A stretch of DNA of 64,000 bases from positions 337,124 through 401,123 of the forward strand of contig JAQGDQ010000181.1 in assembly GCA_030141605.1 (NCBI GenBank), in the 5' to 3' direction. The position numbers and the translations under genes were made by a program. Position 1 is the stretch's first letter. Every line of letters starts with the position of its first letter. The notes beneath the pieces were generated by a model. It was not told the DNA's origin, searched no databases, and saw only the letters and a program-made list of their open reading frames with translations. Shown here in pieces: positions 6,201 through 53,100 of this stretch. The DNA is from Tubiluchus corallicola. Taxonomy: Eukaryota > Priapulida > Priapulimorpha > Priapulimorphida > Tubiluchidae.

Positions 6201-9200
6201 TGTCTCGCAGCCTCTCCTCTTCTAAAATTCAAAAAATGATGTAGAAAGCAAACTTCTCCTCTATCAATCGTTATAAAGCACTGTACGTGGCCTTCTTAAT
6301 AAACTCACAAAAGACCAACAAGCCATGCAGGATTACAAGAACATGACAACACGACTTTGTGATACATGTATTGGGCACCCACACTTACCAAAATCGCATA
6401 ACAAAAAATGATAGCATAAGATTCTTTTCATTGAATCAAGGTCATCAAGGCTACTACTACCTGAAAGCTGCTTGAAAACTCAGCAAACTCATTAATTAGG
6501 TTATGACTGTGAATACCAGAATATTGATAAGCTATTGCAGCTTATTTCACAACAATTATTACCTGTTGTGAGTAATGAGTTAAAAGAAGATATTCTTAAA
6601 ATCTGGCAAACTAACATCAATAACAGTAATAACAGACAGTCTGAGTACCTTCCAAAATATATTAGTGAGTGGAAATCAAAACGAATGCTGGTATTGATTA
6701 ACAGCTATTTGAAAATCAAGCAAAGAGAAATAAATGCTTGCCTGATAAGATATTCTTCGAATCATCCAGTCTAGTTTTGCCAAAATATTCCGAAGCTGCA
6801 ACAGTTGGTATCTGATTTGTCCGTTTGTCCTGATTGTGTATATTATCAACAACAGACACGGTTGGCTTGCTGACAGTACTCTCTCGAACATTATTTGGTA
6901 CGGAAGAACTATCTGGTTCCTCGTGAGGTCTGCTGGGAAACTCTGGGAGGTATTCAGCATAGAAATCTCGAAACGTGTTGTCCGCTACTAGCACATTATA
7001 CCTGTTCTCGTCACTGCCTATTTCATCAAAAATTGTCCTCGAAATAGGTTTCCTTGCGGGGAAAGCACAGTTTGACACCTCGTGCTGTATGAGGTCTCGC
7101 TTTTGCACATATTGTCTGCATTTCTCACAAGACTCGGTTCGTGACCCGCACTGCACCAAATGTTCCTCTAGACTATCTCCACACAATTCCAAATCACAGA
7201 AGTGGCAAGGAACAAGACGCTTTGGACAAGTCAGCTAGACAGACGAACATTATAAAATAAACAAGTTGTACTGACATTACACTACTCAAAATAACATTCG
7301 GCAATTACAGTTATTCGCTATGTGTAAACATTTGTATAGTAAGCAGGTTTATATGGGCTAAAAAAATATAATCATTCATGAAGGTTAGGAAGCTTCACAT
7401 TATATTTCCCATTGAGAATGAAAATACGAATTTTTTTCCAAACTGCAAATTTATTCTAAGGCACAAGAAACACTTAAAAAATGACAACACTCTTCTACTT
7501 TATCATGACGTCATTATCAAGTGTTCTAATAGCAAAAACATGCAACATTTTTTTTAAAACATCACAAACAGTTGGGATAAATGCTTCAGTAAGCAAAAGC
7601 AAATAGTTACTGCAGTCTAAACATCTTTTAAGACAGTATCCAGTAGTAAACTGGGTTATCCAGCTACAAAAACATCATTAGCGTAGCACCTAAGAACCCA
7701 TTACTTTTTTGACCATTTACTATCAAAGTAATTCTTTTACTAATGTAACTGTTACTATTACATTTCTGAAAACTGTAGAACTCTCTACAGTAACAAGTTT
7801 CACTGTCAGAAAAAGAGACTAGTCACAGTTACAATTCACTCTCCACCAACAGAAAACTAACTAGTTAATGGAACCTGTTACAATTACGACTTAGTTTCCG
7901 AAAAATTGTAACTCATTGCGGTTACAGTTCCAAATTAAAGTATGTATAACAAAGTGCAAGCAAACAAGAAAGTGTGTAAATAAAAACTTGCCAGGTTTTT
8001 GGCAAATGCGTTTCAAATGCAACAAGGGAATTTCAAAGGTTATCTCTCAGTGAGTTCGTAGACGAGCAATTAACAAAACCGTAACATAAAAAGGAACGGA
8101 TTAACGAAAGCTTGAAAAAGCTTAAATAATAAAACAGTTTGTCAAATGTAGGCTCGAAGATATTGCACTCTAATAGTTTGTGTGTGTGTTAATGACCGTA
8201 TGGTCGTACACTCACCTCGCCCTACTCAAATTATTTTATTTAAAATTTATTAATGTGTTTGATATTGTTGATAGTTCATAGTTATGAATGTAAAGCAATT
8301 CAAAAATGATTTTAAAAAGCTTTCGTTGTTGAGCAGAAGTAAATCATATGATACGACTGAAACTGTTTTCTGTATATTTGACCTAAGCATTTATGCATTG
8401 ATTGATTTCAGCTGAAGCTTGAACAAGTTATCTTCTTGGTTAAACTGATTTTCTAATTTCAATTTAAACTAATAAATAAAATCGTTGTACTTTCACTGCT
8501 CTACCTCTAAATTTAGCTAGGCAATAACTGCTAAATTTCTTCATTTGTATAGTTATTCGGCGTATTTTTGTTGGCTCTGAATGCACAATAAATTATAAAA
8601 AAAATGATAACTACATATCATTTAAAAATTTACAATAACTACACAAAATTTGTAAATTTGTAACTACGTGTTATGCATATTTGTTTTAAACTGATTTCAG
8701 ATGGTTCTGCCATCGACTCGAAAGTTAAGCAACTACTGTACTACTACAAAAACTAGCTAAGTTACAAGGCGTTACAAAACTACTGTTCTGTTGAGAGTTT
8801 TCTCTCTGACAGCAAACTCTCAAGTGTGAACTGCTTTGCAAGTTACTGTCGGCAAGAAATTACAAACTCTCCTACAGTTGCGGTGAGTTGATTTACTATC
8901 TAGTGTGAACACCTAGTGCATTACTCTTGATGCTTCTCACAGTGAACAGAAACGGGAGTGTCAGCTCACGCTTACTATCGGAGAATAACTCGCAGTAAGT
9001 TTTGCTCTCTAGTCTGAACATGTTTGCAAGTTACATAGCGAGTTTAGTTAGCAAGAAAGCTCGCTAATCTGAATCTGCTTTTAGTCTTAACAAACCTGAT
9101 GATTCGCTAGTTGTGATTTCTCTACACCAGCATCACACAGCGAACAAGACACTACAGCATGATATTCATCATCATGATCTTGCAACTGATCCTTTGGAAC

Positions 9201-10526
9201 TGGTTCATCACATTTGCGACAAAGAATTATGTTCCGTGAACAGTGAACTTGATGCAACTGAAAATTGGCCAAAGAGACGTCCCTTTTGCTAGATTAAATT
9301 AAAAAAACTATCATTATACACAAAATTAAAATTACAGTTAAATCTAAAAACGTCCATGTTATTTGTTATAATAATAGTAACTATTATATGTATACATTTA
9401 TTCGCTTTGAATAAATTTACTCTGTTCTGTTGTATCCAAGAGTTTTCTTATTCCACTCTATTCTATACTATTTCACTCTTCTCTGACTCCACTCCGTAAC
9501 TTCATTCTGCTCTATTCTCATGTCACACCCTGTCGCAATCCCGTCGCACCCAAATTTACTCTATTCTACCCTATTTTTGTTCATTAGTTCTCTCTGTCGA
9601 AATTTTGATTCTTCTTTAGGTCAAGATATTTTTCTCCAATTTACTCTGCAGAAACAACAAGTTGGTAGCCATGTTGCAATGCCCACACCCAAAGCTTAGG
9701 CTTATCTGTTTTTTATCTAGGGGTAAGGTGACTACTCCTGTAATATAGCAGCATAACACATTAAAATTCATGAGCACTGTATTAGCTATAGACGATCACA
9801 CAAAGGCTGAAAATTGCCGATAGTGACAGGTTTTCACTAGGTGTCAAAATCCTGAGCTATGTATCTGATTTTGTGCATTTTTACCAAAATCAAAAATTAC
9901 AAAACTTATTCATTCTGTCCCCATGTTGCTATTCAACCAGATAACTAACCCATAAACTGCCACTGCTAAGGTTTTTAGACAAATGATGAAGCTACAGACT
10001 TTAATAACAGATATCAACCCTGACTGTCCTATACTCTGGGCACAAACAATAACCAATATCGTATTTAACATTTAGCACCTGTGCTTAATTAAAGGCCTGT
10101 CTGAGTAAGCGCTCCAGGAAAAATCATAAAAAATAAGAAGCACCCTTGTTTGAATAACCACCGAGGTACAGATTGCAAACAATAGCATTTATTAAACACT
10201 ATCTAAGTAATATGCAAGTCACCAAGCCAGTCAACTGGTGACAATCAAATGTGCAAGCTACTCGCCATCTGTAACAGGCAGCTAACAATTTTCATTATAA
10301 TTTTCAAGTACCGAGAACGACAGTATGCATGGGACTATGCTGTATTGTTACCTGGTGCACATAAGCAATAAGAGATTTAAAAATTAATAAGCTCCGTTTG
10401 AATAAGGACCAGTTGATTAATTTGGTTGAAAAACAGAAAGCCCCAGGCTCTAAAATGAGTAAACACAATAAATACACAGCATAGTGATACTTGCCAATTT
10501 GGACAAGTTTTGGAGTCATCTTCCAT
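283..10526 (-). CDS. TRAFD1: TRAFD1/XAF1-like TRAF-type zinc-finger protein, 8 exons, complete
   Basis: Exons in order: 10495-10526, 9096-9288, 6742-7234, 6018-6221, 4640-4850, 2775-2883, 1355-1543, 283-405. Phases agree at every junction and the sum is 1554 nt (517 aa plus stop). The N-terminus has Cys pairs and His-x3-Cys fingers (CPNC at residues 8-11, then HQVHC) followed by two more C-x2-C/H-C fingers to about residue 125. This is the finger array known in TRAFD1 (FLN29) and XAF1. Two C-terminal PCEFC fingers (about residues 314-335 and 397-420) are typical of TRAFD1; the rest looks disordered, with a basic Pro-rich tail. In vertebrates TRAFD1 dampens TLR and innate immune signalling; that role here is inference. 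The chosen ATG has a good context (AAA before, G after). Another in-frame ATG lies two codons upstream (10530-10532), directly preceded by a TAA stop. Introns 1 and 3 use GC donors. XAF1 is less likely because it is shorter and lacks the PCEFC pair. Confidence 0.88.
2990..4560. repeat. Dispersed AATCGATT-rich repeat in intron 5, with a nested pogo-like element
   Basis: The AT-rich block around 3030-3950 carries AATCGATT motifs and resembles 26,030-26,400 in the same orientation. Both contain the string CAATTGATTTGCAT, then GGAAA-CAAAGCCCAAA variants, at comparable spacing. The block continues after the pogo-like element (4467-4560, again with ATCGAT motifs), so the latter appears nested in it. 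No coding capacity was recognised. A separate hAT-like terminus (CAGTGGCGGCTTATGTG) lies at about 3280 without a visible partner end. Confidence 0.5.
3958..4466. mobile_element. Non-autonomous pogo/Tigger-like DNA element
   Basis: The left end reads CAGTAGTTGCCGCTTAACAG. The right end, inverted, reads CAGTAGGCGCCGCTTAATAG, so these are clear terminal inverted repeats of the CAGTA-plus-CGCTTA type known in pogo elements. A TA lies immediately left of the element but is not visible on the right. The first about 200 bp match, inverted, the 45,310-45,526 copy that carries a transposase relic, so both belong to one family. At 509 bp there is no room for a transposase. Confidence 0.7.
6740..6741 (-). 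promoter_or_regulatory. GC splice donor, intron 3 of the TRAFD1-like gene
   Basis: Exon 3 ends TTATCAG followed by GCAAGC. The phase (1) fits the next exon at 6221, which continues with an acidic stretch EEERLRDMDADEAL. No GT donor downstream of the coding stretch would preserve the frame. This is the second GC donor in the same gene. Confidence 0.75.
7235..9095. other. Intron 2 of the TRAFD1-like gene (no gene seen)
   Basis: This AT-rich intron carries no recognised coding exon. The stretch 7690-7930 is dense in GTAAC/GTTAC motifs on both strands. The stretch 8790-9070 repeats GTGTGAAC and GCAAGTTAC-type strings, suggesting decayed transposon or satellite-like sequence. Neither was resolved to clear termini or target duplications. 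Confidence 0.4.
9420..9600 (+). repeat. Pyrimidine-rich low-complexity tract
   Basis: Degenerate CTATT, CACTC and TCTGTT words dominate this stretch in intron 1 of the TRAFD1-like gene. There is no single period and no coding signal. Confidence 0.5.
10493..10494 (-). promoter_or_regulatory. GC splice donor, intron 1 of the TRAFD1-like gene
   Basis: Exon 1 ends TTG followed by GCAAGT. Joining to the acceptor TCTAG at 9289-9290 completes a Cys codon and makes the first CPNC zinc-binding pair, and the phase (2) matches. No GT nearby gives a sensible join. Apart from the C, the hexamer matches the strong donor consensus, as is usual for GC-AG introns. Confidence 0.8.
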
Positions 10527-33053: not shown

Positions 33054-36000
33054 CTATTTCCTTACTTGCTTGACCTCATCAGTGTTATCTAAAAAATAAA
33101 AAAACATAGTCATTAGTTAAGCAGGTAATAGATGACACAAAAAAGTGAACAACGAAACATAGTAAAATGCAATACAAAACGACGCGAATCATCGCCAAAA
33201 ATAACATTACTTAATAACAAAATAAAAATTTGGCGAAAGAACAACAAAACAAAAATAGTTTAGGTTGCTACAAATAAACTTGATAAAAATAATTTTCTAA
33301 TAGAAACAGTTTGACAATCATAAACATAGCTCTTACTAATGAAGAAACAGGAAGTCAAAGACTAACAAAAGCGCAACTATTATACTCTAAATGTATTTCA
33401 TTTAGTGAGGGTTTGAATTGGACGGATTTTCGCATAAAATAAATAGTGCAATCTACTAAAACATTGCACAGAAAAGTTTATAAATGTAAAAATTCAGCCC
33501 TACACAAAAGATTATTTTACTAGTTATACTAATCGAAATTCAAGTAAAAGACAACTGAACACAAAATAAAACCAGAAGAGAACTGGTTTAGAAAAGGCTT
33601 AACACAAGAAAGTCTCTAGTTGCATTAAAATGAGTTTACATTTTACCAGTATTATGTGTAACCATACAGATAGGGACTGCTTATTTTAAGGAACAAACAC
33701 AGTAGCTATTATAACCATGCATCAGGCAGATGACTGTATTTTTGCAGGAAACAGTGTTATTTTTTAAAATAAACCATAACAATATCTGAGCACAAAGTCA
33801 TTCATACACCTGGTGTGAACAGGTGCCTTCTACCTGAAGTGACATGAACTTTAATGAAGCAGGTAACAGTTGCCCTAGAAGATGCGGCTACCAATGTGTT
33901 CGTATCATCTGCAAAATTACAGCCTTGTCAAAAAAGTATTCATTTTCATGCTCAAACATCAATCCAATATACCTGAATTTCTAGTCCTGCTAGCACTTCG
34001 CTCATGGTGTACATTTCTGTTCTGTTCTGGTGAACTTTCAATGTCTGGTTTCAGTGTATTACCAGTGGAAACAACTTCCAGACCAGCAGCATGATCACCG
34101 ATGTTCATTGATAGTTTTTTCAATATCAATGTTGGCAAAATGTTGGTTCTTGATGCCAACAGCGACAATTTATCCTTACTATCAACCATCTTTCTTTTAT
34201 TGTCCACAATTGCAGTTTTTCTTTTCCTAGCCCAAGCAGGTGATTGTTCTTCACAAATTATATGTCGTTCTTCGTTACTTATATGTACACTTTCACCTTG
34301 CGATTCTGCTGCTTTGTCTTTACTGTCAACCATCTTCCTTCTGTTATCCACAGTCACAGTTTTTCTTTTCCTAGCCCAAGCAGGTGATTGTTCTTCACTA
34401 ATTATATGTTGTTCATCGTTACTTGTATGTACACTTTCACTTTGTAGATCTGCCACTTTATCCCTACAGTCAGCCATCTTTCTTTTATTATTCACAGTTG
34501 CAGTTTTTCTCCTCCTAGCCCTAGCAGATGATTGTTCTTCACCACTTGTACATTGTTCTACGTTAGTTGTATGTACACCTTCACACTGCAGTTCTGCTGC
34601 TTTGTCCCTATGGTCAGCCATCTTTCTTCTGTTATCCATAGTCGCAGTTTTTCTTTTCCTAGATCCAGCAGGTGATTGTTCTTCACCATTTATATGTACG
34701 CTTTCTCTTTGCGGTTCTGCTGCTTTGTCTTTAATGTCAGCCATCTTTCTTCTGTTATCCACAGTCGCAGATTTTCTTTTCCTAGCCCTAGCAGGTGATT
34801 GTTCTTCGTTACTTGTACATACGCTTTCTCTTTGCGGTTCTGCTGCTTTGTCTTTAGAGTCAGCCATCTTTCTTCTGTTATCCACAGTCGCAGATTTTCT
34901 TTTCCTAGCCCTAGCAGGTGATTGTTCTTCGTTACTTGTACATACACTTTCTCTTTGCGGTTCCGCTGCTTTGTCTTTAGAGTCAGCCATCTTTCTTCTG
35001 TTATCCACAGTCGCAGATTTTCTTTTCCTAGCCCTAGCAGGTGATTGTTCTTCGTTACTTGTACATACACCTTTACTTTGTGGTTCTGCTGCTTTGTCCC
35101 TATAGTCAGCCATCTTTCTTCTATTATTCGCAGATGGAGTTTTTCTTTTCCTAGACCTAGCAGGTGATTGTTCTTCATCACTGGTAAGTACATTTTCACT
35201 TTGCAATTTTGATGCTTTGTCTTTACTGTCAGCTATTTTTCTTCTATTATTCACAGTCACAGTTTTCCTTTTCCTAGCCCTAGCAGGTGATTGTTCTTCG
35301 TTACTTGTACATACGCTTTCTCTTTGCGGTTCTGCTGCTTTGTCTTTAATGTCAGCCATCTTTCTTCTGTGATCCACAGTCGCAGTTTTTCTTTTCCTAG
35401 CCCTAGCAGGTAATTGTTCTTCTTTACTTGTACATACGCTTTCTCTTTGTGGTTCTGCTGCTTTGTCTTTAGAGTCAGCCATCTTTATTCTGTTATCCAC
35501 AGTCGCACATTTTCTTTTCCTAGCCCTAGCAGGTGATTGTTCTTCGTTACTTGTACGTACACTTTCTCTTTGCGGTTCCGCTGCTTTGTCTTTAGAGTCA
35601 GCCATCTTTCTTCTGTGATCCACAGTCGCAGTTTTTCTTTTCCTAGACCTAGCAGGTGATTGTTCTTCGTTACTTGTACATACACCTTTACTTTGTGGTT
35701 CTGCTGCTTTGTCCCTATAGTCAGCCATCTTTCTTCTATTATTCGCAGATGGAGTTTTCCTTTTCCTAGACCTAGCAGGTGGTTGTTTTTCACTACTTGT
35801 ATGTTGTTCTTCGTTACTTGTAGGCAAACCTTCACTTTGCAGTTCGTCTTTACTGTCAGCCATCTTTTGTCTATTATTCACAGTTGCAGTTTTTTTCCTA
35901 ACAGGTGATTGTTCTTCGTTACTTGTATGTACACTTTCAATTTGCAGTTCTGTTTCTGTTATAAAGGACACACTCCCCGTTTTCCTTGCAACATCACTTT

Positions 36001-39000
36001 TTGTTGATTCTGCTGTAAGTATATTTGTTGTTTGAGAAGTTTTTTGTTCCTTCACTTTTAGGCATTCAGGAAAAAGTCTTTTTCTAATTGCACTACGCTG
36101 TGCATTGGCACTGTGATCGATAACATCAGGAAATATGGTTTTATGGCATTGACTGGAAGGTGACAGCTGACGTCCAGGGGATATAACAAAGCTCTCGTGA
36201 TCGTTCACAGGGACGTCAATTGTGGACAGTGACGTGTGAAATGAGACGTCCGTATTTGCTTCACATTCTTTGATACACCTTGCTGAACTCGCATGACTAG
36301 AAGAAATGCTGCTAATAAGTGACTGTGAGGGTGACTGCATAAGTCTCTCGCCAGGTGCAACAGCATTCTCAGCTTCAAAGCGCTTTCGATGTTTACTAAA
36401 TGCAAGTTTAATAAGTTCACACTTTCGCAACCGTGGTAAAGGAACTGTTGCATTTCCTAACGGTTTGCAGAGGAACTGGGAGCTGCTCAAGGATGAGGTT
36501 AACAACGACTCATTACTTGCAGTGTTAAAAAGTTCCGACTTCCTTAGATTGTCATTATCTATGTTATTAGTGACAAGTGAAAAACGTGTTCTGTTCATAA
36601 TTTCATCATGAAGTTCAATTTCTACTGGCTCTGTGGTTAGGATCCCTGCTTCTCTTTCAATGTGGCTTTGACCAGGATCAAGGTTTGCATGAAACTCACG
36701 TGTTCCACTTGTCATTTCAACATAAGGTACAGTAATACTATCAGGCACAATATCTGTTGACTCGGGCACTATCGCATCTGAATTGTGAACATGGTTTACA
36801 TGTGAAATCTCTAATCTTGTTTCAGAATGAAGCATTTCGTCATTTTCGGGAATGACAATAGGTGACGCAGGTTCCTGAATTTCCTCGTGGTTGACTGTTT
36901 GTGCTGTGACGGATGATTCTTGATTGAAAAAGTGGTGAGCTTTTGAACTTCCAGCTTTAGGTCTCGTTTCATTATTAGGATCAGATATAAATGGTAATGT
37001 ATCATTATCAGTCATACTACTGAATGATTCACCATCAGTTCGTTCAACGACTGTTGTCTTAGCCAAGCTCAGAGAAAGGTTTTTTGCTTCCTCATCAGAT
37101 GTTATTTCTTCCTCATCGCTTATGTGTTCACCATCATTTAAATTTTTCTGCAAGCCGACTTTCTTTGCTATGAAAGGAATTTTTACCTTCAATATATTGC
37201 CTGTTCTTACCTTTCTGGATTTTTGCACTTTTCTATTTGAAAATTCACCTGACTTTTCCAAAGTGTTCAGATCCCCGTTACCCGACTTACTTGAGCGAGT
37301 TCTGACACGTCCTGAACATTTTAAACACTCTTGTTCGCTTGAAGAACTTTGCACTGGTGATATTGACACGACTTTTGCATGAATTTCCGGTACATCATTG
37401 TTGCCCATCCTTTTCTTTTTCTGCAATGAATCCCTTTGTTGCTTGGGATCAGATGCACTTTCTTTAGGATAATTGTCATTTTTAGATATCACCAACACAG
37501 TATTAACCTGTTCCAGAATTACTTCATTATCTACGTTTTTTAATTTTTCTTTCATAGTTGATGGTGACATATGACTAGTGGCGTTAAGTAAAGTTTGTGC
37601 AGATATAAATGGAGATGTTGTTACGGTTTTGTTCTCGTTGTCATTATCTAACAATGCAGCAGTATCTGCGGCAGGCGATGTTAACACGGATTTGTTAACA
37701 GTATCCGTGACTGATTCACTTGTAATTAGTGGAGTGAATGCTTCAACAGCAGATGAAGGTGATATCGTTTCAGTTGTAGTAACTGACAAAGGCGGTATAA
37801 CTTCATCAATGGCAACGGCCGAGGCTTGTGTTAAATTCATTTCAGGACTGGACAATGAATGTGCAGATATTATTGGTGCAGATTCAACACTTCCAGTTGA
37901 TGTTTTTTCGGATATGGTTAGTATAGATTCATTAGCTACAATTACAGCAGATACAGATTTTGCAGAAGCTCCCCTGCTCTTTCTCGATAATGAACGAGTT
38001 TGCCTTCTCAAAACATCAGTGTTCAAGGATAGGTTGTTTTCCTCTGGTTTTTTAGTCTCCACAACAGCACTATCAGAGTTCACGGTTACTTCTGACACAC
38101 TGTCACTTACAATTGCCGCACCATTTGCAGTTGGTTCAAGTATTTCATTAATATCAGGCTTCTCTTTAGCTAACACAGTAAAAGAAGCATCATCTTTGCT
38201 TTCCTTATTTTCTACTAGCTGCTTCAAAAGTTTCTCATGATTTTCGGATTTTCTCATTATGTTACTGTCTTGCGACTGTTTCAGTATGAATTGATCATCA
38301 CTGTCAAAGCCAATCAGTTCAGCATCTTGTAAAAGACTTCCTGATGTGCAAGCATACCTCAAGTTGGGTATTTCAATATCCTCGGTAATATCATGTGTAC
38401 GTCTAACTCTATTGAGAAAACTTGTTGATCCCCTAAATAAATCTAGACTGCCAAGCTCAAACCATCCTCGAAAGTGATTGCTTTCCTCATTTATGGTTTC
38501 CTCCGTCACTTCCTGGGAAGGTCCTGCAGATCGTAAACCACTGGAAAGCTCAGTAGCTGGATTGTGCGACTTAGAAGTACCAGAAGAACGGAGGTTACAA
38601 TGTCCTTTGACTCCAGACTTCAGTGACACCTTCGATTCCCTATTCAATGTATTTATATCATTTACCTTATTCCACGCTTCTTCACCTTTTTCTGCAGAAT
38701 CCTCCACACTTTTCTCTTTGGTTTCTTTAGATGTTTCACCTTCGTGTTTCGTCTTTTTGCTAAGGTTTAGAACTTTAGCATTACCTGCATCAGTCTGTCT
38801 CTTGGAATAATTGATACCAGCATTTTGCTCAGATAAGTGAATGTCATCAATAAGTTCACTTGTTCCACTTTCAAGTGATGCAAACATCTCGTCGTACTTA
38901 ATTGCTAGAGATTTGCTACGTTCTGTTTCTGTGTGAGAATCATCAAATCTCTCCTCATCTCCAGGCTCAGGTGTACCTACTTCAAAAATCTCTTCTTGTG

Positions 39001-41053
39001 TTCGTTGTTTAGTGTCCGCTGCAGAATCATTTCGTATGTTAAGAGTCATTCCGTGAGAAAATCAGCAAAATAGTGGAAGGTGACAAATCACCGATTTTGT
39101 TCATATTCACAGGGTTTGATGGTCCCCTCAGATGTACCCCACAGCCAAAATATTAGATTTCAGAAATGAGCCGTTTCGGAGAAAAGCCGCCATTTTGATT
39201 TTTTTCGGATTTTGGCCATTTTGGCGTAAAAAATTGCCCATTATTTCTCACGTTATTACAGACAGTAAATGAGCGATCCAGCACTAGTTAATTGGTGATA
39301 TATATAGTAGGGGTCTTACCCTACCGTACCATTATCGTTGCCAAATTGAACCTCCTTTTCAGTTGGTGTCATCAGATTGCAAAAGATACGTGTCTGCTGC
39401 TGCTGAATTTAGACGCCATTTTGAAATCCCCGTAACTCCACTGGGGCGGGTATTGGGGGACTAATCAATATATTTTTATTTGCAGCTTGACTAGTCCTAC
39501 AAATGCATGAAATAAAATTTTGGCCAGCGATCTCCCAAGAATCCAGAATTTTTAGCCGAAGTTGCTCTTTTTTGCCATTTTCACAACCTTGACCTATATT
39601 TAGCTATTCGCTTTGGATGACGGTGTTGCCATTAGAATCGATACAAAGTGCAGCAACGTCAATGTTTATAGTAGTCATGGACTGGCTTTAGATGTCTGGG
39701 CACTCCTAGCAACCAGGCCCCTCATCAGGGGCCCATTCCCTTCGAAGGGCCCCTGTGACGATTACAACATAGTGATTTTTATAATCTGTATAAAACACGG
39801 AATAGTTTCATGTACATAATAACAGTTTCGTGTACAAGTGCTCGGGCTATATACCTATGGCCCGTGGATCAATACGGAGGCCTCGGGAGGGCCCCACTCT
39901 CTTGACTGAAAAATAGACTTCAGTCAAAAAGGTTTAGTGTCGCTTTCTAAACAAGATTCTAAAGTAAGGCGGACAAGGCGAGGCAAGGCACTATTTGTGA
40001 AATTGTGTTGAAACCGCCGCGAGCATCGAATATAACATGTTGCGAGCCAATTTTTAAAACGCGCACAGCTTTGTGTGGTCTTGTATTCAACAGGCGAATA
40101 GTTGTCAGTCCCTGATATTTTTCCTCAAATCAATTCGAGTTAATAGTTAGTTAGTTACTAATACCCTGGTGTGGCAACTGCGACAACCAGACTTCTGCTT
40201 ACTAACAACGGGCATTAACAAAAAAAACTGGTTAAGAAACGCAGCAAAGGTTAGTACGACCCTGCCTCGGCCGTTACATACTAATTCCGACTCTGTGCAA
40301 CGTATGTTTCAAGCCATTCGCTCATATTGTATTTAACCGCTAGGTTTCCACCGTCTTGTAAAGATATACGCATATACACCGACTACCATATTCAACTAAA
40401 CTCTAACGAGAATCAGGGCGCTGACACTTATAATCACAAATTTTCAAAATAACAAAAAGAGAAACAACAAATTCTTTACGTCCACGACTATTTTTTATTC
40501 GCCAATATTCAATGAAAAGTCGCACTATAGTAAATAATAATAAGCTAATAATTGATAATACATACAGTAAGCTGCTACTATGTGTTGCTATGGTAACCTC
40601 CTTATCAAAAGAGACACAGAGAGACAGAGAGAGTCACAGAGAGACAGAGAGAGTCACAGAGAGACAGAGAAAGAGACAGAGAGACACATAGAGACAGAGA
40701 CAGAGAGAGAGAGACACACAGAGATAGAGAGACAGAGAGAGACACAGAGAAACAGAAAGAGACAGAGAGAGACACACAGAGACAGAGAGACACAGAGAGA
40801 GAGACAGACAGAGACAGAGAGAGAGACAGAGAGAGAGACACAAAGAGACACAGAGAGACAGAAGAGACACAGAGAGACGGAGAGAGACAGAGAGAGGCAC
40901 AGAGACACAGAGAGCGACACAGAGAGACACACAGAGAGAGAGACAGAGAGATAAACGCACAGAGAGAGAAACACAGAGAGACACAGAGAGACAGAGAGGG
41001 AAACAGAAAGACAGAGAGAGAGAGATAGAGAGAGACACAGAGAGACAGAAACA

Positions 41054-41120
<67 letters not shown>

Positions 41121-44100
41121 ACATGGAGAGACAGAGAGAGACACAGACAGACACAGAGAGAGACAAAGAGAGACAGAGATAGACACAGAGAGACAGAAAG
41201 AGACACAGAGAGACACAGAGAGACAGAGAGAGACACAGAGAGAGAGACAGACAGAGACACAAAGAGACACAGAGAGACAGAAAGAGACAGAAGAGACGGA
41301 GAGAGACACAGAGAGACAGAGAGAGGCACAGAGACACAGAGAGACAGAGAGCGACACAGAGAGACACACACAGAGAGAAACACAGAGAGAGACACAGAGA
41401 GACAGAGAGAGACACAGAGAGACAGAGAGGGACACAGAAAGACAGAGAGACAGACAGAGACAGAGAGAGAGACAGAGAGAGAGACAGAAACAGAGACACA
41501 CACACACACAGACATGGAGAGACAGAGAGAGACACAGAGAGAGACAGAGACAGACACAGAGAGACACAGAGAGACAGAGAGAGAGACACAGAGAGACAGA
41601 GAGAGACACAGAGAGACAGAGAGAGACACAGAGAGACAGAGAGAGAGACACAGAGAGATAGAGAGAGACACAGAGAGACACAGAGAGATAAAGAGAGACA
41701 GAGACAGAGAGAGAGTGACAGAGAGAGACACACAGAGAGAGACAGAGAGATCCAGAGTGAGACACACAGAGACAGAGAGAGACACAGAGAGACACAGAAA
41801 GAGACAGACAGAGAGAGAGAGAGACAGAAACTGTAATTTATCGTTTCTTTTTGAAATTTTCATTTTTTTATTCAGAATTATGAATAATTCGTACTAATTT
41901 TTTTCCGATTTAGGTCACATTCAAGATCGAATCTCGTCAATTTATGGACGAGCTGGCCAAAATTTTATTAATGACCTAAGTATGCCTGGTCAAGCTGTAA
42001 ATAAACATATATTAATTATACTTCAAATACCCGCCCCAGTGGAGTTATGAGAATTTTAAAACAGGGTGTCATTCAGACGGTAGCAGACACACATCTTTCA
42101 TGAGCTCATGATACCTACTGAAAGAGAATCTCAATTCATCAAACTCAATGTGGCAATAGGGCAAGACCCCTACTATATATACCACCCAGCAACTAGTCCT
42201 GGATCATTCATTTACTGCCTGTAATGATGTGACAAATATAGGTCATTTTTTACGTCAAAATGGCCAAAATCCAAAAAAAATCAAAATGGCGGCCTATCTC
42301 CGAAACGGCTCATTTTTGATATCTAATATTTTGGCTGTGGGGTACATCTGAGGGGATCATCCAACCCTGTGAATATGAACAAAATCGGTGATTTGTCACC
42401 TTCCACTATTTTTTGACTTTTGCATGGTTTTCTCGCGGAATGACTCTTAATAGTCTCAGCAGTTTCATCAAGCTCATCCTCTTCGTCAAAAACCTTGCCG
42501 GAATTTTCTTCACTGTTGGAACTTTTTTCACCACTGGAAGGTTCATCGCAGGACACACTCAATTCAGGCTCAAGCTTTGACTTTTCACTAATGTTATTTC
42601 CTTTATCACTCTTTAAATAACTGTTAATCGGTAATCGGTGATTGCTCTTTTCTACATGTTCAACTTCTACTTTGTCACCTTCAATAGAAACGTCATCTGA
42701 AAAATCGCTGAGGGAGTTTTTGCTTAAATGCCGTGGCAATGTTTTATCTAAGTTCATTTCAACATTCTCGCCAGAGGAAGTTGCTGGCTCAGTTCCCCCA
42801 AGCTTATTATCATTTCTAAGTTCTTTATTTTTAACACCTGATTCAGAATTTATTATACTGAACTGTGATTTTTGTTGTGGAGATATGCTACACTTCTCAT
42901 AATCAGTATCTTGTTTCTTAGCAGACGCTTTTTCTTCACCTGCAGGGTATTCACATTTCTTAAAAATACTTTCTAAGCTTTCTCCTGCTGCCAAATTGCC
43001 ACCTTCATCAAAATCTGATTGTTTCCTACCTGTAGGTGTGTTACCTTCTGAACTACTATCACTATCACCCATTTCTCTGCTAATAGTTTTTCTATTAAGA
43101 TTTACTTTAGTCTCGTTTTCAGCGTCAATATTACATACAGATTTTGATTCTGTATCATCTGAAGATTTTTCGTTTTCTGAGCAGCTTCTACTGATATCAC
43201 CTGCTTCTTCATCATCATTAATTCTCTTTACATTGTTCTCTTCATTTAGGGCAGATTCTGTGCTTCTGCTAGTAGGTTTTAACAAAATACCATCATTACC
43301 TAATTCACCAACATTTTTGTTGTAATCCGATATCGCAAATATTCTTTCTTCAATTGTGTCACCACTAACCAACTCACCGAACACTGATTTTAAGCTCTTT
43401 TCCTCTGGTACATTTAGTTCCTCTTCTTCCCCATCTTCTTTGTCCACCGTTGACTTTGATTCCTCCTCCTCCATTTCTATTTTTTCGCCAACACTAACAA
43501 CTTCCGACTCGAATTTCTGATCAAAGTACTCAACAGAACTATGTTTTCCATATTCATAACAAGTTTCAAGTTTACTAATTTTTTCATTTTGCATTTTACC
43601 TTGTCTATTGTCTTTCAAGCTACTTTCTTCTACTTCTTGTTCTTCTTCTTCCATTTCCTCTTCGTCATCTGACGATAAATCTGACGTAATGTCTCCATGA
43701 GATTTCGACAAACATTTTTCACTTTGCAAGCCCTCTTTAGATGTGTCTTTTGATTTGTTCTTTTCATTTTCACTCATATTATCAGGTTCCTCCTTGTCAT
43801 CTTCTGATGACCTCATCTCCATGACCTGATAGGAATCCCCATTTTTGTCTTCTGATCTCTCTTTAGTTTCAATGTCTGATTCTTGGGTTTCATGTTCCTC
43901 TTGTTCGTTGTCATTTTCCTCTTCCTCATCACTAGACGTAGACTCTGATTCAGTGTTCTCTTCGACTTGATCGTCACCATTCATAAGAGATTCGACATCT
44001 GTATCGTGATCAGTCATTCTTTGATCATCAATTTGAAAGATATCGAAGTCATCACTTTCAGCGTCAATTTCTTCCATTATAACGAGTGTGTCATCTAGTT

Positions 44101-47100
44101 TGCTTTGAGCATCATCTTTGTCTTCATCCTAAAAATTAAAATGAAATTATGAAATAACTAGTTGCAAATTCCTCCTGTCAAACATTACAGGCAATGCCCA
44201 TGTGACCCACATCTAAATCGTTAAATATGAACTAGATATTATTTTTGTTAGACTCGTCCTAAGTATGAGTATGAGTGCGCAATGTGGGCAACCTTCATTA
44301 CAGTACTTTCAATTTTTCCATTTCTCTCCAAAGGGCTTTAAAATATTAAAATGCCAAATACTATCACACTTAAATTGTTCTCAACTTCTCCGTGAAAATA
44401 AATTAAATTATAACCGTGCACAATGCTTCTTTGCAGCACTAAATTTACGTAGAACATGGGCCTAAAGGAGAAATTTAAACATGATTATTAATGTGTGCTT
44501 GCAAAGCAAAATCGTCCATAAGCTGGCAATTAAGCTTTTCATCGCTCTATGTTTTTTCTAAGCTGAGATAATCCATGTTGAAGTTCAGGTGCACGCTACA
44601 CACTGAAAAACGTAATCCTGAGAAAAGCGCTGTTAAAGTCAGCCATTGTTTTTTTTGTCGCGTCTCTACGAAACACATAGCAACTGTGCTACGGAAGTTA
44701 CACTTAAATCCAGTAGATGGCTCTTCCTGACGAAGATCTAGTCTTGTGAACAGAAAAAATCCAAAGCAAAATGGTTGCTTCCACGAGCTACAATCGTAGT
44801 TAGAAAATACAAGTTGTTTTACAATTACAGTACTAGTTTCTAAGCAGAAAAGTGGGTAAGGAGTGATAAAATTAGACTTTTTGCATTTTTGGAAACTGAA
44901 AATTGGATGACGGCTGTATTGTTTAACGAATGGTTAGTGAAATGGTAGACAACTGTACTGCCCATGTAGTCAGCACATCATTGAAACACATTACAGTTGC
45001 GTTTTGCCTGCAAACACCACATCACTTATTCAGCCCTGTGATCAAGGCATTATTCGAACACTGAAGGCATACTATAGAAGAGAAATGCGGACGAGAGTGT
45101 TAGAAGCAATAGATTCAGACGATGCCATTGATCAATTAACCGCAAATGACCTAGCCTCCTGAACGCTTTACATGTACTGGCTATGTCGTGGAGCAATTGT
45201 AAGTGAGCAGCCAACATTGGAGGAATTTTTGTAATATTTGCACAGAAACAGACCTGTGTGATTTGGAAAAATATACTATATTATTTATTATTAATTCACT
45301 TATATAAATTCATATTTTAAAATATTTTTTCCAATTTTTAACTGCACAAAAGAATTTAGGCATTACTTCATTTCTAAAATTGATTAAAAGCCTTTGCAGT
45401 GCATAGTAACCTGATGACTCATACTTCTATAGCAGTAACACTACACCCATCGGTTAATAGGTTCAGTTGGTTAACTGGATCAAAACACGTCAGTCCCAAA
45501 GTGAGTCTATTAAACGGTGACTACTGTATTAATATTATGTGGATTCAAGTGTATGGTGTTATAGTTGTATTACCTTAATTTACTCACACATGTACTATAT
45601 AATAAATTACTATAAACTAAATAATATACTACAAAAATACTAAAATCATTAGCACTAAGTGCTGTATATAGTATAATCAGCTAAAAAATGAAATTTAAAC
45701 CTGATAGACGTCTACAGAATTTGTTGCTTTGTCAATAGAGAAGAGTGGCTGATGCTGATCTGAAGGTTCGGTGCCAAGTACGGGTGCCATCACTTGTAAG
45801 TTGAAACTCTGGAAAAGCACACGAAAAATTATTTACAACATGCTCATATAAAAAAATCACATACTGCAGACTTAGTAGCGATATGTGACAAAGACTCTGA
45901 CTATCTCTCTTTCCTATCTCTCCTTGCAAAAAAAAACAAGAGCAAAGAAAGAAAGAGAATCATGGCAAACTAAGTAAAATCTAAAAAATGCAACATACAT
46001 CCAAGATTCGATTGCATAGGTCAGTTTGGGCAGGTTTCAGCAGATATTTAGTGACAGCTAGCATATCATTTCCTCGCAATTTGAGAGGCACTTCGTGCAA
46101 AAGCATAGAATTCAATTCTTCAAGCCAACGCCAAAAACGTGTCGGTGCTGGAGTATCTAAAACAAACAAGGATAACCACATTAATTATATATGCTAGCAT
46201 AACTCACTAATGGTATTTAACTGAGTGCAAAAATGGACAGCAAAGGAAAGAGAAGACGAAGACAGGAGAGACATATTCCATAAAAAGACTAAGGTTCTGT
46301 TTAATATACGGACTGTGGTGAGAAACGCTCAAGACATGCCAGACGGCCAGCATGGTGAAGACACATGATAAGAACTTTGAATTGAAATAAAACAACAAAT
46401 GGGATGATCGGGCATTTGCAAAATGTAAAAAAATTCAAGATCGGGCAAATAACAATTTTCAAACATAAATTTAAGCAAATTTTTCATTTTTTCTTTTGAA
46501 GTCAAGTGAGTATACCGAGTGCTTTCTTTCGAAGTTCCGCTGTTTCACTCTTTCCTAGTATGTCTGTGGTCATTTTCACTGCAAGGATGTATTTAAGGTA
46601 CTGCGTGCAGGTCAGACCATCCGGTAAAGACATGAGCACTTTGTAAGCTAACGAGTAAATGATATCCTTGTGCTCTGGTTTAAAAAGTGTCACCTACATA
46701 GCAAAAAACACATTTTAATTGGTGTTATGTGAATCTATGTATGATCCAACACATCGTCATTATAATCAAGTTCTGTGATGCAAAGTAATATTAACCTTGA
46801 AGTTTAAAATAATATTTCTCTGAACAAAAGTATTTGACAACTGCATTAAACCTAACAGTCCTGTTTTTGAAATGCAGGAAAAAAAATTAGACTGATGTTA
46901 GCAACAAACAATAAGGACGGTTGTGGAAAGGCTTTAACATAAGTTCTTCTGAACCTGTTTGCCAATCCTTTCAACTATGTATGTGTATGTGGTTGCATAG
47001 CAAAATCATCAATAAGTCGGCAATTAAGGATTTCTAGTTATTCACATATCCTGACTCTCCATTTCATGAGGATCATTTTGATACCAAGCTCATTGCTCTA

Positions 47101-50100
47101 CATTATTTCTAAGCTGAGATAAACTATGTTGAAGCTGAGGTGCAAGCTGCGCACTGAAAAACATAATCTTGAGAAAATTGTTGTTAAAGTTAGCCATTGT
47201 TTTTTGTCGCATTTCTACAAAGCACTTAGCAACCGGACAAATATTGGTTGCTACGAACTTTACACGAACACATTGAAGTTACGTTTAAATCCAGTAGAAG
47301 GCTCTTCCTGACAAAGATCTGGGCTTGGCAACAGTAAAGGCCCAAAGCAAAATGATTGCTTTTATGAGCTACTGTTAGAGTTTGAAAATACAAGTTTTTT
47401 TTTACAATTGCAGTAACCAGAAAAGTGAATACGGGGTTATAAAATTAGATGTTTAGTATTTTTTGAACACTTTCGTGATCATTTGATGCTAGAATATAAA
47501 AGCCCAATATATTTAGTGTCTATTTTTATAAAAAACAAAAAATTGACATTTGACCAAATTTTTGGTGTATTCTACTTTGAAGCATTATAACATAGTTTTA
47601 ACTATGCCAACTTACGGACGGTGTAGGTTTGCAAGCACACATATATAAAAACTTCACAATTAACAATATTCTGAAAATTTAAAAATTGAAAGAAGATCCA
47701 GAACCATAATGTAAAAACAGAAAGCATGCCTGAATTGAAAATTTTGCAAAACAGTAACAGTGATTTAGTATTCATGTTGCTAAAATTAGCTAAAACATAT
47801 TTTCAAAATTATATTTGCAAAGATGACAGGAACCTATTGCTACAAATACTACATTAGCATCCAGTACATTACAGATATAATGAGCTAACATCAAATAGCC
47901 TACAGAGTGATATGATAAAAAAAACAACTTACACTATTCAGCTCAGACTATTTTACAACGAGGAGGGAAGAGCATTTAATACCTGTGAGCAACTTAACTT
48001 CAAAATAACAGGTTTGCTTAATAAATTTACGAATTAAAGTGAGGTGAATAAGCAACTGGTTATAATATGAATTTGTGACTAAAATTAAGCAACATCGGGG
48101 CTGGTCAGTGAACAGATAAGTGACTGGCAAGTCCAATAACTCGTACTAACCGGTTTCGTTGAGCGTCAGCATACAGATTCTGGGTATGCAACTCGCCATT
48201 GAGGGAAAACATACTCACAATTGAATGTGGCGAAGATACTTCCCGTGTTATATTTTGGGAGAAGCACCCTCAATAACGAGTCAGATTCTGGCCTTGCTGC
48301 AACCATCTACATTAATTAGGACAAGCACGTAATTCTCAAAACGCTAAGGTTCTACAAAAATTTGTCATCATCATTAGTGTTCCATTTGCTGTAGTCGATG
48401 TGATCAGATTTGGTTTACGAGAAATTTGTTTATCTACTGTTTCATGCAATGTTCCCTTTTAGTTTTAAATGTACTCTTGAGAATGGCTGCCATTAAGTAC
48501 TTGAGATATTGAGTTTATCTATTAATAAATTATCTCTTGTACCCATTTAGCTATTTCAGTATGTTTCACGGTGTTAGTATACCAATTACATACATATGCT
48601 TAAAATAAAACACCTTATTTCATAGTGAATGTAAGCAAAATAATCATAGCTCTCACCTGTAGAATTACATCAAGCATAAAAGTAGGATTGTGTCCAATGA
48701 ATGCATATAATTGTAAGCAGATTTGACTAGCGATCACAGTTTTATCTTCTGCTTTCCTAGATGCTGTAATATGCAAATCCACTAACATGGACATCAATGC
48801 TGCTGCAACATCATTGCAAAATGCTGACGACTGTAAAAACACTGATAATCATCAATACAGTTACTATTTCACCACATGATACAGCAGCAAAAACCCAAAG
48901 AAAAATAATAAAAGATTTAAGTAACCGACGAAACTTTCCGTAGGAGTCTTTCTAGCTGCAACTTGTAATTTAGTAAATTAGCACAAAATAATGACTTCAA
49001 AATACCTTAATGAAAAATTTCCATTATTTGAATGTCTGTTACATACATAGTGATGTGAGCATACAACGAAACACAAAGAATAAATAAAATTTAAAATAAA
49101 TTTCAACTTACGATTCAAAGTAAATAATAATGGTTATTTGGTAAGAATAGATTTACAATAATGCAATTTTATACAGCCACCTGTGCATTACCACAGACAC
49201 ATATTCGCTTTGATGCTAGACGGACCTTATGTCAGGTGAAACAGCTGCTTAGCACAATATTGAAACAACTGGCATTGGCATGGTATATCATAAACGCATT
49301 TACAGACACACATATTTTTACTATCGCATTTTATATTGATGCCGGAGTAAAACAAAATGAATCCAATGTATATAAAACAGTCACATGTTATCGGGTAACC
49401 GTGCCAGTTGATGTCACAGCCAATGTGGAGCATAATTAGGCAAGCACCACACTACCAATTTAATTCACATATTCAAAATAAAAACTCACGTACTCTTGGT
49501 AACTGCTGGGTCTTCATATGGCAAAACGAAAGGAAATCCTGCAGTCCAGTTGCTAACTTCTTTGCAGATTTGACTTTTTTCTTTTCAACACACTTCTGAA
49601 CTACACTTGTCATCATCATCATGAACTCCTTCATGAGATTCTCCACAGCCGCTGCCGTTGTAATGCCAGTTAGAAGGTGTTGATAGACCCTCGTATTTCG
49701 AAATGGAATGTTGCTCGTATATTTGCTAGATATGGCTTCAGCAGTCTATACAAGATACCGATATATGAAGACTGAATAGCGAAAACAGAAACAACACTTT
49801 CACAAACTACACAGAACGACATGTCATATTAAAAATAACAAGTCTTTGAATTTAGCAAAAAATATTGTATTGCACAAAATTTTCTTGAAAAAATCTGCAT
49901 TTAAGACCCGATGTGACTAGTTTTTTCTTGCTGTTGGCAAAATCCCTGCAAAACTGCTCATCATTTGAAACGTCTATCTCTATAGCGAGAAAAAACTCTT
50001 GCGTGTTTCTTGCTACACCACAAAAATGCAGGCGAAAATGGCTATGGCAGCATTTTTATATATATATATAACATACCAGCGAAATTAATACATACGATCT

Positions 50101-53100
50101 TAATAAGCGTTGATTATTACCTGGTCAATCAATGCTTTGTCCATATCAGTAATCATATTGTGTTTTAGCTTCTGAACTAAATAGTGACAGTCTAAAAAAT
50201 AAGTAATAGACTAGACTTATCAGCTGTTAACTGAATTACACTTAATATGCATAAGAGAAACCTCTCACAGTCTACTGCTACTTAATATAATAAGTTAATA
50301 TTAATATATTAAGTCATAAAATGGAGTAAGAGATTTTCTGTATATATGCTAGATTCCATCACACAAAGGATACTAATAATTTCTGAATGGTTCTGTAGAA
50401 CTGGAGTTCAGCTCATTACCAGGGATATCTAACCAGTAAAGGTTTTTCAGCACATTCAGATGTATATGTTGTCACTCAGTGAGTTAGACAGAGAATAGAG
50501 CAGATGAACAGAAATGTCACTGAAACATTTGCAGTTTTATTTTCAGTGCAGACAACCATGAAGCTTTAAGGTCTCCAGATACAATCAATCGAAATATGAA
50601 AGTGCAATTTCAACAAAACTAAGTTTAAATTTGAAATTTATGAAATATAGTCAACTAACTATTTACAAAATAAAATATGTTTATTTTTTTCAAGCGTTTA
50701 GTTCCAAGGTATTACTTCTGGTTGCAGTTGAATAACAGTAAGCTATAGAATGAATATCCAGGATTCAACTGTCATGTAATATTAATTTTTCTTGGCTAGC
50801 TGTTTTCATCAAGTTTAGATTAGAGCAAATAAAAGCAAAAACAAAGTATTCTACTTGAATTTTTTTTCATAGTAGCTGGTCTTGAAAAAAATGTTTTCAA
50901 TTCACTTTACTAAGTTTAATAATTTTTGGTTTTCGTTTCAGTTTGTAATATTAGTTTCGGTACTCCTTGCACTTAAAGCTCTATGAAAAACATCCAGAGC
51001 AGCACAGGTTTGGTACATCCCTGCCAATAAAACCATATCAACTAGAGCTGATGCTGCTTAATTCTGTAAAGCTAAAAGCTAATAGTAAAAAATTTGCTGT
51101 TTCCCTTTACTACGTAATACTTAATATCGGAGCTCAACCTGCTACAATAATTTCATTCGAGATGTATAGTTTTGTTATGAACAGCTAAACAGAAGAGACA
51201 TGAATTTTACATTCGCTACATACATGTACAATGTTGATTTGAAACTTCTATTAATTACACATCACTGCATTATACAAAGCACATTTTGTAAATATTCATT
51301 TTACTTACAGACTTTTTGCTGAATTTCAGGAGACAAACAGTCAGCCAATCTCTGATTTAGAACGCAAGATTCCCGGATGCAAAAATTGTACGGTGCTTCT
51401 AAGTGTTTGTTGTCTTCATCAGTTAACAAGTCTTCTCTGACAGTCTTCTGTTTCTTCAGACTTGAAGGCTCTTTCACTGTTTCCAGACGACCATCCAATA
51501 ATCTAGAAATAAAACAAAAAAAAAACAGTTTAAGGTAAGTAAAGAAATTTATGTGGAAAAGGTGAGGAGACCATTACATTCACCATTCAAATATGGTCTA
51601 AAGAGGGCATATTTTTAGCAATTAGATTAGAAGATACTTGACTCTTTCTTACCATCTCATGTATGATTTTAGTAGAGACATGGGAACAATATGAGCAAAA
51701 TAACAGCAACCAAAAACAAAATGATCAAATGCTAAACTTCTATACAATGCTAAACTATACACATCTTACCATTATATGATGCTAAACTTATATATTTTAT
51801 ATACTATTTTATAATGTTAATCTATACACATCTTACTATTATATAATGCTAAACTATACACATCTTACTGCAGTCAAACCCCGTTACAGTGCCTTAAGGG
51901 CATTAAGCGAGGTTGGCATTACAAAAAGGGGCGTTATAACGAGGTTTGACTGTATTATAAACAAAAAAGTGCAAAGTAGAAGAATAGGTACTTTAGCTAC
52001 ATGTACATTTGTGATACAGTAAATGTCTTGCAATGTTTTAGCAGACACATCTAATCTTTACACCTCAGCATAAAGTTAAAGGCCGAAAATGGTATTTGGA
52101 GGTCTACTGTAACACTCATAATCTTAGCGCTAACATAATCCCTAATGGGGGAGCCTAAGGAATTTGTCTCCTTGCTAGTTACATAACCGCAACAGTAAAT
52201 ACAGCAGGTTTAGCGAAACAGAAGAGAAGGTGTAACCTCTGAAGCATAGTAAGATAAACTTTGAATTGGTTTTCAAGATCATCCTTTAACGGTCCTTCTG
52301 GTAGGCTAGCAACAGCAATCTTCAGTTGTTCTTTTAACTTCTTCTTAGTGACGACAATACCTACATACAGAACAAAATAAGCAGAAATTACAAACGATAA
52401 TTATCATAATCTACTAGTTTAATCTAGATTTTACTTATGAAAAGTACAACAGGAATGGTATTGTAATTTCACGTCACAAGTTTCTGTTGACCCAACTCTC
52501 AGAAGCCCTATGGAAATTAATAATGGCCATAATTAAAAATTAAAAATTTACAAGATCAAGACAAAGTCTCAGGACAATTTTCTGTTGGTTTTATAATTAA
52601 CTATGACTATTTCTTCTAATTTGCTATACTAGCTCTAGTTGCCTATGGTGATGGTGACACTGGGTCAATAAAAGCTGTCCAACAGAAGTTGCTATGCCTC
52701 TGCCATACTTTAGTTTTATTTTACCTTCAGTAGGTAAAGTGAGGTCATCCATTGTTAGCTAATGAGTTGTTTTTTAAACTTTTTTAAAATCAGCCATCTA
52801 CTTAATACAGCAGGTTGTGGCAAGACCAAAATCTATACCTCATTATCAAGCATCTAAGATTAGATACTGAATCAGCAGCAGTGCCTTAGTCTTATTCTGA
52901 TGAGCATACACTCAAACTCAACAAGATAAATTAATTACATTTGGCAGCACAGTATGGCTGTTTACCAGCCAACGGAAGATCCAGGAATTCACTCACTTGA
53001 TTATTCTACTAATCAGGCTCAGTATGGCTGATCATATCAGATGTTTACTTTAATGAAAAAAATTACTTTTCGAGTATTAGCTACAAACATAGTATGATAT

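Follow-up and report, generated by a model that had tools for sequence, protein, structure and literature searches.

Two long open reading frames lie on the minus strand of the 64,000-nucleotide stretch of Tubiluchus corallicola DNA analysed here (C1859:337124-401123; hereafter the window), and a palindromic sequence separates them. The question that this locus raises is whether the two frames are the halves of one giant exon interrupted by a transposable element and, if so, what the element is, how old the insertion is and what has become of the gene. The initial annotation had described a palindromic, TTAA-bounded element at 39039..42450 splitting one exon; the coordinates, the TTAA copies and the inverted arms were all confirmed. 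Our reading, in which we have considerable confidence, is that a recently active non-autonomous TTAA transposon, probably mobilised by a Kolobok-type transposase, inserted in a giant minus-strand exon and duplicated the TTAA. Such an event is of a known kind, basically an ordinary DNA transposon insertion. The features are as follows.

39039..42450, no strand assigned: non-autonomous TTAA DNA transposon, 3,412 bp including both TTAA copies
39039..39042, no strand assigned: left TTAA, target-site copy, read in the sequence
42447..42450, no strand assigned: right TTAA, target-site copy, read in the sequence
39039..39528, plus strand: left inverted arm, ca. 490 nt, best in the outer ca. 200 nt
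41952..42450, minus strand: right inverted arm, from the arm alignment
40610..41828, no strand assigned: AG/AC-rich simple-repeat array within the element, ca. 1.2 kb
42451..44128, minus strand: part of the interrupted exon upstream of the element, acidic, 559 codons and one additional base
42326..42446, minus strand: element-encoded tail on the upstream half, 41 codons, followed by a stop at 42323-42325
33973..39038, minus strand: downstream part of the interrupted exon, ca. 1,689 codons to a putative donor
45999..52360, minus strand: candidate upstream exons of the same gene, boundaries approximate

Bounded by the two TTAA copies, the element has the inverted ends TTAAGAGTCATTCC. The arms matched at ca. 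81.5% over 502 alignment columns (ca. 490-500 bases) and are thus imperfect, with a complementarity of 92% over a stretch of 26 nt, 94% over 175 nt and 72% over 329 nt. A Pfam run on 10 proteins in all gave no match with an E-value below 0.09 for the eight open reading frames of the element (56-76 residues, lying outside the array or, in one case, at its edge). No Rfam match reached its gathering score, a tRNA scan found no tRNA, and the predicted RNA folding of the left arm was unremarkable (z = 0.12). As judged from its open reading frames, the element appears to be non-coding, with no recognisable transposase.

The whole assembly (343.5 Mb in 2,344 contigs) was searched with the left 212 bases of the element, and at least 40 matches, including that of the window itself, were found at 96-100% identity (40 scored among 90 candidate matches). 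Long stretches were fetched for 20 of the 39 other matches. TTAA was present at both ends in 18 of these 20, at independent sites, as is characteristic of TTAA cut-and-paste transposons, and these copies were 2,892-3,999 bp long; for the remaining two (L037 and L042), the right end was not found within the fetched stretch. The printed 20-base flanks differed among the fetched copies, except that the right flank of one copy, L050, was the same as that of the window. When the window copy and the 18 others were compared outside the array with gaps excluded, the mean pairwise identity was 98.3% in the left part and 98.4% in the right part, and the copy nearest to that of the window (L031, on contig C2195) was 99.5% identical in both parts. 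These 19 copies belong to a young, non-autonomous family that has multiplied recently. The length of the AG/AC array among them ranged from 669 to 1,799 bp, indicating that the family carries an expandable simple repeat.

The minus-strand frame that begins at 44128 runs for 601 codons to the stop at 42323-42325, its last 41 codons being derived from the element. The second frame opens within the element: it runs from 39061 to 33962, over 1,700 codons. When 42451-44128 was joined through a single TTAA to the sequence below 39039, a frame of 2,253 codons with no stop was obtained; the 2,249 codons given in the initial annotation, which counted to the donor, agree with this by arithmetic. Keeping both TTAA copies, the only other join compared, produced a stop after 561 codons. 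Agreement of frame alone would occur by chance in one of three cases, yet both frames are open at the junction and lie on the same strand. As a control, the same join was made at the 17 other full-length copies, where just 25-81 stop-free codons spanned the TTAA, the flanks available being short (173-212 bases to one side, 490-1,613 to the other). This result suggests that the family has no preference for exons. At the 18th copy, L050 on contig C877, 360 stop-free codons spanned the TTAA, since this copy is bordered on its right by the same half of the exon as the window copy. That a TTAA element was inserted in one continuous exon is thus well supported, by the two TTAA copies, by the frame and by the existence of a family with many copies.

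The outer borders of this exon resemble those of its neighbours. The GT after base 33973 scored 6.3 as a donor and the AG before 44128 scored 7.7 as an acceptor in our own, approximate splice-site matrices, and both values fall within the range of the neighbouring candidate exons, which lie near 52238-52360, 51309-51502, 49476-49745, 48657-48830, 46505-46693 and 45999-46156. Glutamate and aspartate make up 28.9% of the upstream half and 15.4% of the downstream half, a difference in composition that counts against our reading; serine and charged residues are abundant in both. A single exon of the gene is probably disordered. Neither half had a Pfam match. Exon 49476-49745 had three, at E-values of 0.022-0.073, all below their cut-offs, and the best match of the concatenated exons (E = 0.05) was likewise below its cut-off. 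The exons of the gene had no NCBIfam match and one non-significant match among PDB sequences (E = 0.73). A search of 5.8 billion proteins, possibly few of them from animals, was scored for residues 1-420 of a concatenated query, which comprise the candidate upstream exons and 55 residues of the first half; none of its 7,432 candidates reached an E-value of 0.01. That the two halves form one gene is suggested by frame and context. Within the downstream half, 34169-35801 consists of in-frame tandem repeats (ca. 10 copies of a 123-nt unit and 3.7 copies of a 144-nt unit) encoding a basic motif of ca. 41 residues.

Other repeats and genes were seen in the window. Just upstream of the giant exon, 44941-45159 is a transposase relic matching Pfam DDE_1 (E = 8.2e-11), which we take to be pogo/Tigger-like. 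Two diverged, dispersed repeat pairs, ca. 73% identical, were found at 44539-44894/47090-47467 and 3951-4154/45285-45533. The minus-strand open reading frames at 6719-7234 and 9090-9293 carry a TRAFD1/XAF1 zinc finger scoring above its cut-off, together with additional TRAF/UBZ-like zinc-finger matches below cut-off, and probably belong to another gene.

A second contig bears on whether the junctions themselves are correct. C877:106017-113239 (fetched as L050 and L052) has the same right junction as the window, but the element there is another, full-length copy, and the sequence to its left is unrelated; thus, two contigs contain the right junction and only C1859 contains the left one. Since C877 shares the right junction and differs in the left flank, one of the two contigs must be misjoined or rearranged. 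If the exon-element-exon order of C1859 had arisen through wrong assembly at this 3.4-kb repeat with its many copies, the arrangement in C877 would be the true one. That the identical upstream exon half (no difference in 1,678 exon bases, and none throughout 42,362-44,747) is followed in C877 by a different element and left flank is consistent with such a misjoin, as is the similarity of the right part of its element to that of the window (99.05%, the second closest among the copies compared). In the left part the similarity is 98.0%, as is typical for this family, and the element of C877 is not that of the window. However, the join in C1859 stays in frame for ca. 1,690 codons, whereas C877 joined without its element reaches a stop after 562 codons, one codon past the restored TTAA codons. 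The C877 element also keeps private alleles at 42250, 42294 and 42361, that is, to within 90 bp of the junction, and the gene portion of C877 is just its last 3.8 kb, as expected if C877 is the misjoined contig. We therefore consider a misjoin in C1859 unlikely; most simply, the arrangement in C877 probably arose when terminal reads were wrongly joined across the repeat.

C877 might also be a real structural variant produced by ectopic recombination between two element copies. Such recombination is known between inverted-repeat copies, as described for Galileo in Drosophila in part of PMC4168063, and one flank is exactly common to C1859 and C877. Against it, no reciprocal product was present among the copies compared (exact identity over the last 40 flank bases). 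Besides, C1859 and C877 hardly differ in the unique sequence that they share. Beyond the element, the differences are mostly confined to the repeat-rich 44,975-45,608, which holds the DDE_1 relic and a repeat; a single one lies at 44,748, and four are close to the end of the contig. The overlap thus looks like one haplotype assembled twice, and a real variant of this kind is very unlikely. The 3.4-kb repeat is accompanied here by a second, conflicting contig within one and the same assembly.

The age of the insertion in C1859 can be judged from the element. Of 2,209 bases compared, five are private changes of the window copy (0.23%), an upper estimate of the change since insertion because closer siblings may be unsampled. 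This low divergence bears out the earlier suggestion that the insertion is recent. Single-base changes could create a stop by 278 and 686 routes in the two exon halves, and at 0.23% a total of 0.73 new stops would be expected in both halves if selection were not acting. With frameshifting indels added, at a rate of 0.12 per substitution that is our assumption, ca. 2.6 disabling changes would be expected, and none was seen. This difference is mildly in favour of either an even younger insertion or selection. The five private changes imply that a young insertion suffices to explain why both halves are open, so no special mechanism is needed.

One such mechanism would be programmed DNA elimination, by which the element would be precisely removed from somatic DNA in the manner of the internal eliminated sequences of ciliates. 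These are located in exons in Paramecium, according to part of PMC8354472, and here, with two joins tried, the frame is regained only through the exact one. No long frame arises from this join at the 17 other full-length copies, however, and a recent insertion needs nothing more; we regard elimination as extremely improbable.

Removal from the mRNA, which the initial annotation had offered as another way for the halves to stay open, received little support. In this case, splicing at cryptic sites would treat the element as an intron, and a nearly normal protein would be made. By the same approximate matrices, the right arm does contain a donor-like site (last exon base 42400) whose score of 6.5 compares with 5.6 and 6.3 for two of the candidate donors of the gene, and a frame-compatible acceptor is present at 38928. 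This acceptor, the best in 38,700-39,400, scores only 1.9, whereas the five candidate acceptors of the gene score 3.6-9.5, and the TTAA ends themselves have no GT/AG. Such splicing is improbable.

The third possibility raised earlier, that the insertion is polymorphic, was not shown. A 43-bp empty site, allowing up to three mismatches, was not found in the whole assembly, in a search with no positive control behind it, and so the pre-insertion state is reconstructed rather than observed. The individual may nevertheless be heterozygous, as a single-haplotype assembly would hide an empty allele. The insertion might be a segregating or somatically reversible allele, from which a transposase still active in the animal excises the element precisely at the TTAA, and does so often enough for carriers to keep some functional gene product; the element would then be a switch within the giant exon that can be taken out. 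We think it unlikely that the allele is of this kind.

On the basis of these results, we propose that the insertion came about as described below. A Kolobok-type transposase, encoded elsewhere, probably mobilised the element in trans. The element would then have been inserted by cut-and-paste at a TTAA within an exon of the minus-strand gene, the TTAA being duplicated. The protein would end after 560 codons of the exon, the last of them completed by the TTAA, and 41 codons of the element, and ca. 1,690 downstream codons would be left untranslated. The family with its ends, the pair of TTAA copies, the break in the frame and its exact repair by a single TTAA can be seen in the sequence, whereas the superfamily, the direction of the event, the truncation of the protein and the state of the allele are inferred. 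This copy of the gene appears to be broken unless the element is cleanly removed, and the sequenced individual probably either carries an allele that works or can do without the gene. By analogy with piggyBac, for which precise excision is known (described in part of PMC7351741), precise excision could restore the gene. The locus shows neatly how a young TTAA transposon can break up a coding exon of great length, and the case would gain in importance if precise excision let carriers keep the function. Gene models made automatically from this assembly will probably show the interrupted gene cut short or in separate pieces.

The element can be compared with several known groups. MITEs are small, typically under ca. 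800 bp. The present family is similarly non-coding and has many near-identical copies, but its members are 2,892-3,999 bp long (18 copies), and the array alone accounts for 669-1,799 bp. Sola3 elements have a TTAA duplication and GAG ends, both of which are features of the window element, and on this general background Sola3 is a possible superfamily for it. Galileo elements have long inverted arms and a variable interior, as does the window element. Galileo belongs, however, to the P superfamily, as stated in part of PMC4168063, whereas the target duplication here is TTAA.

According to part of PMC2872659, piggyBac elements have CC[C/T]T termini and inverted repeats of 12-19 bp, and for the coral CMITEs one locus is described there with alleles having and not having the element. 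The window element is like piggyBac and the CMITEs, as far as that part of the source describes them, in its TTAA duplication and in being non-coding and presumably mobilised in trans. It is unlike piggyBac as characterised there in ending with GAGTC and in having arms of ca. 490 nt, and piggyBac was rejected as its family on the grounds that the CC[C/T]T terminal motif is absent from its ends. The same genome contains 47 piggyBac transposase matches. At one piggyBac-bearing locus (L055), where the piggyBac-type transposase match has one in-frame stop, TTAACC[CT] and [GA]GGTTAA lie ca. 2.8 kb apart; at another (L056), neither motif occurs in the stretch examined.

Kolobok elements, as described in part of PMC9587614, duplicate TTAA and have 5'-RR..YY-3' termini. 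In the window element, the ends are GAGTCATTCC (termini TTAA-GAGTC). By these termini the element may provisionally be assigned to the Kolobok type. It differs from non-autonomous Kolobok members in having long imperfect arms and a large simple-repeat array, whereas the TTAA duplication and the GA..TC inside the TTAA, which is of the 5'-RR..YY-3' form, are like those of Kolobok.
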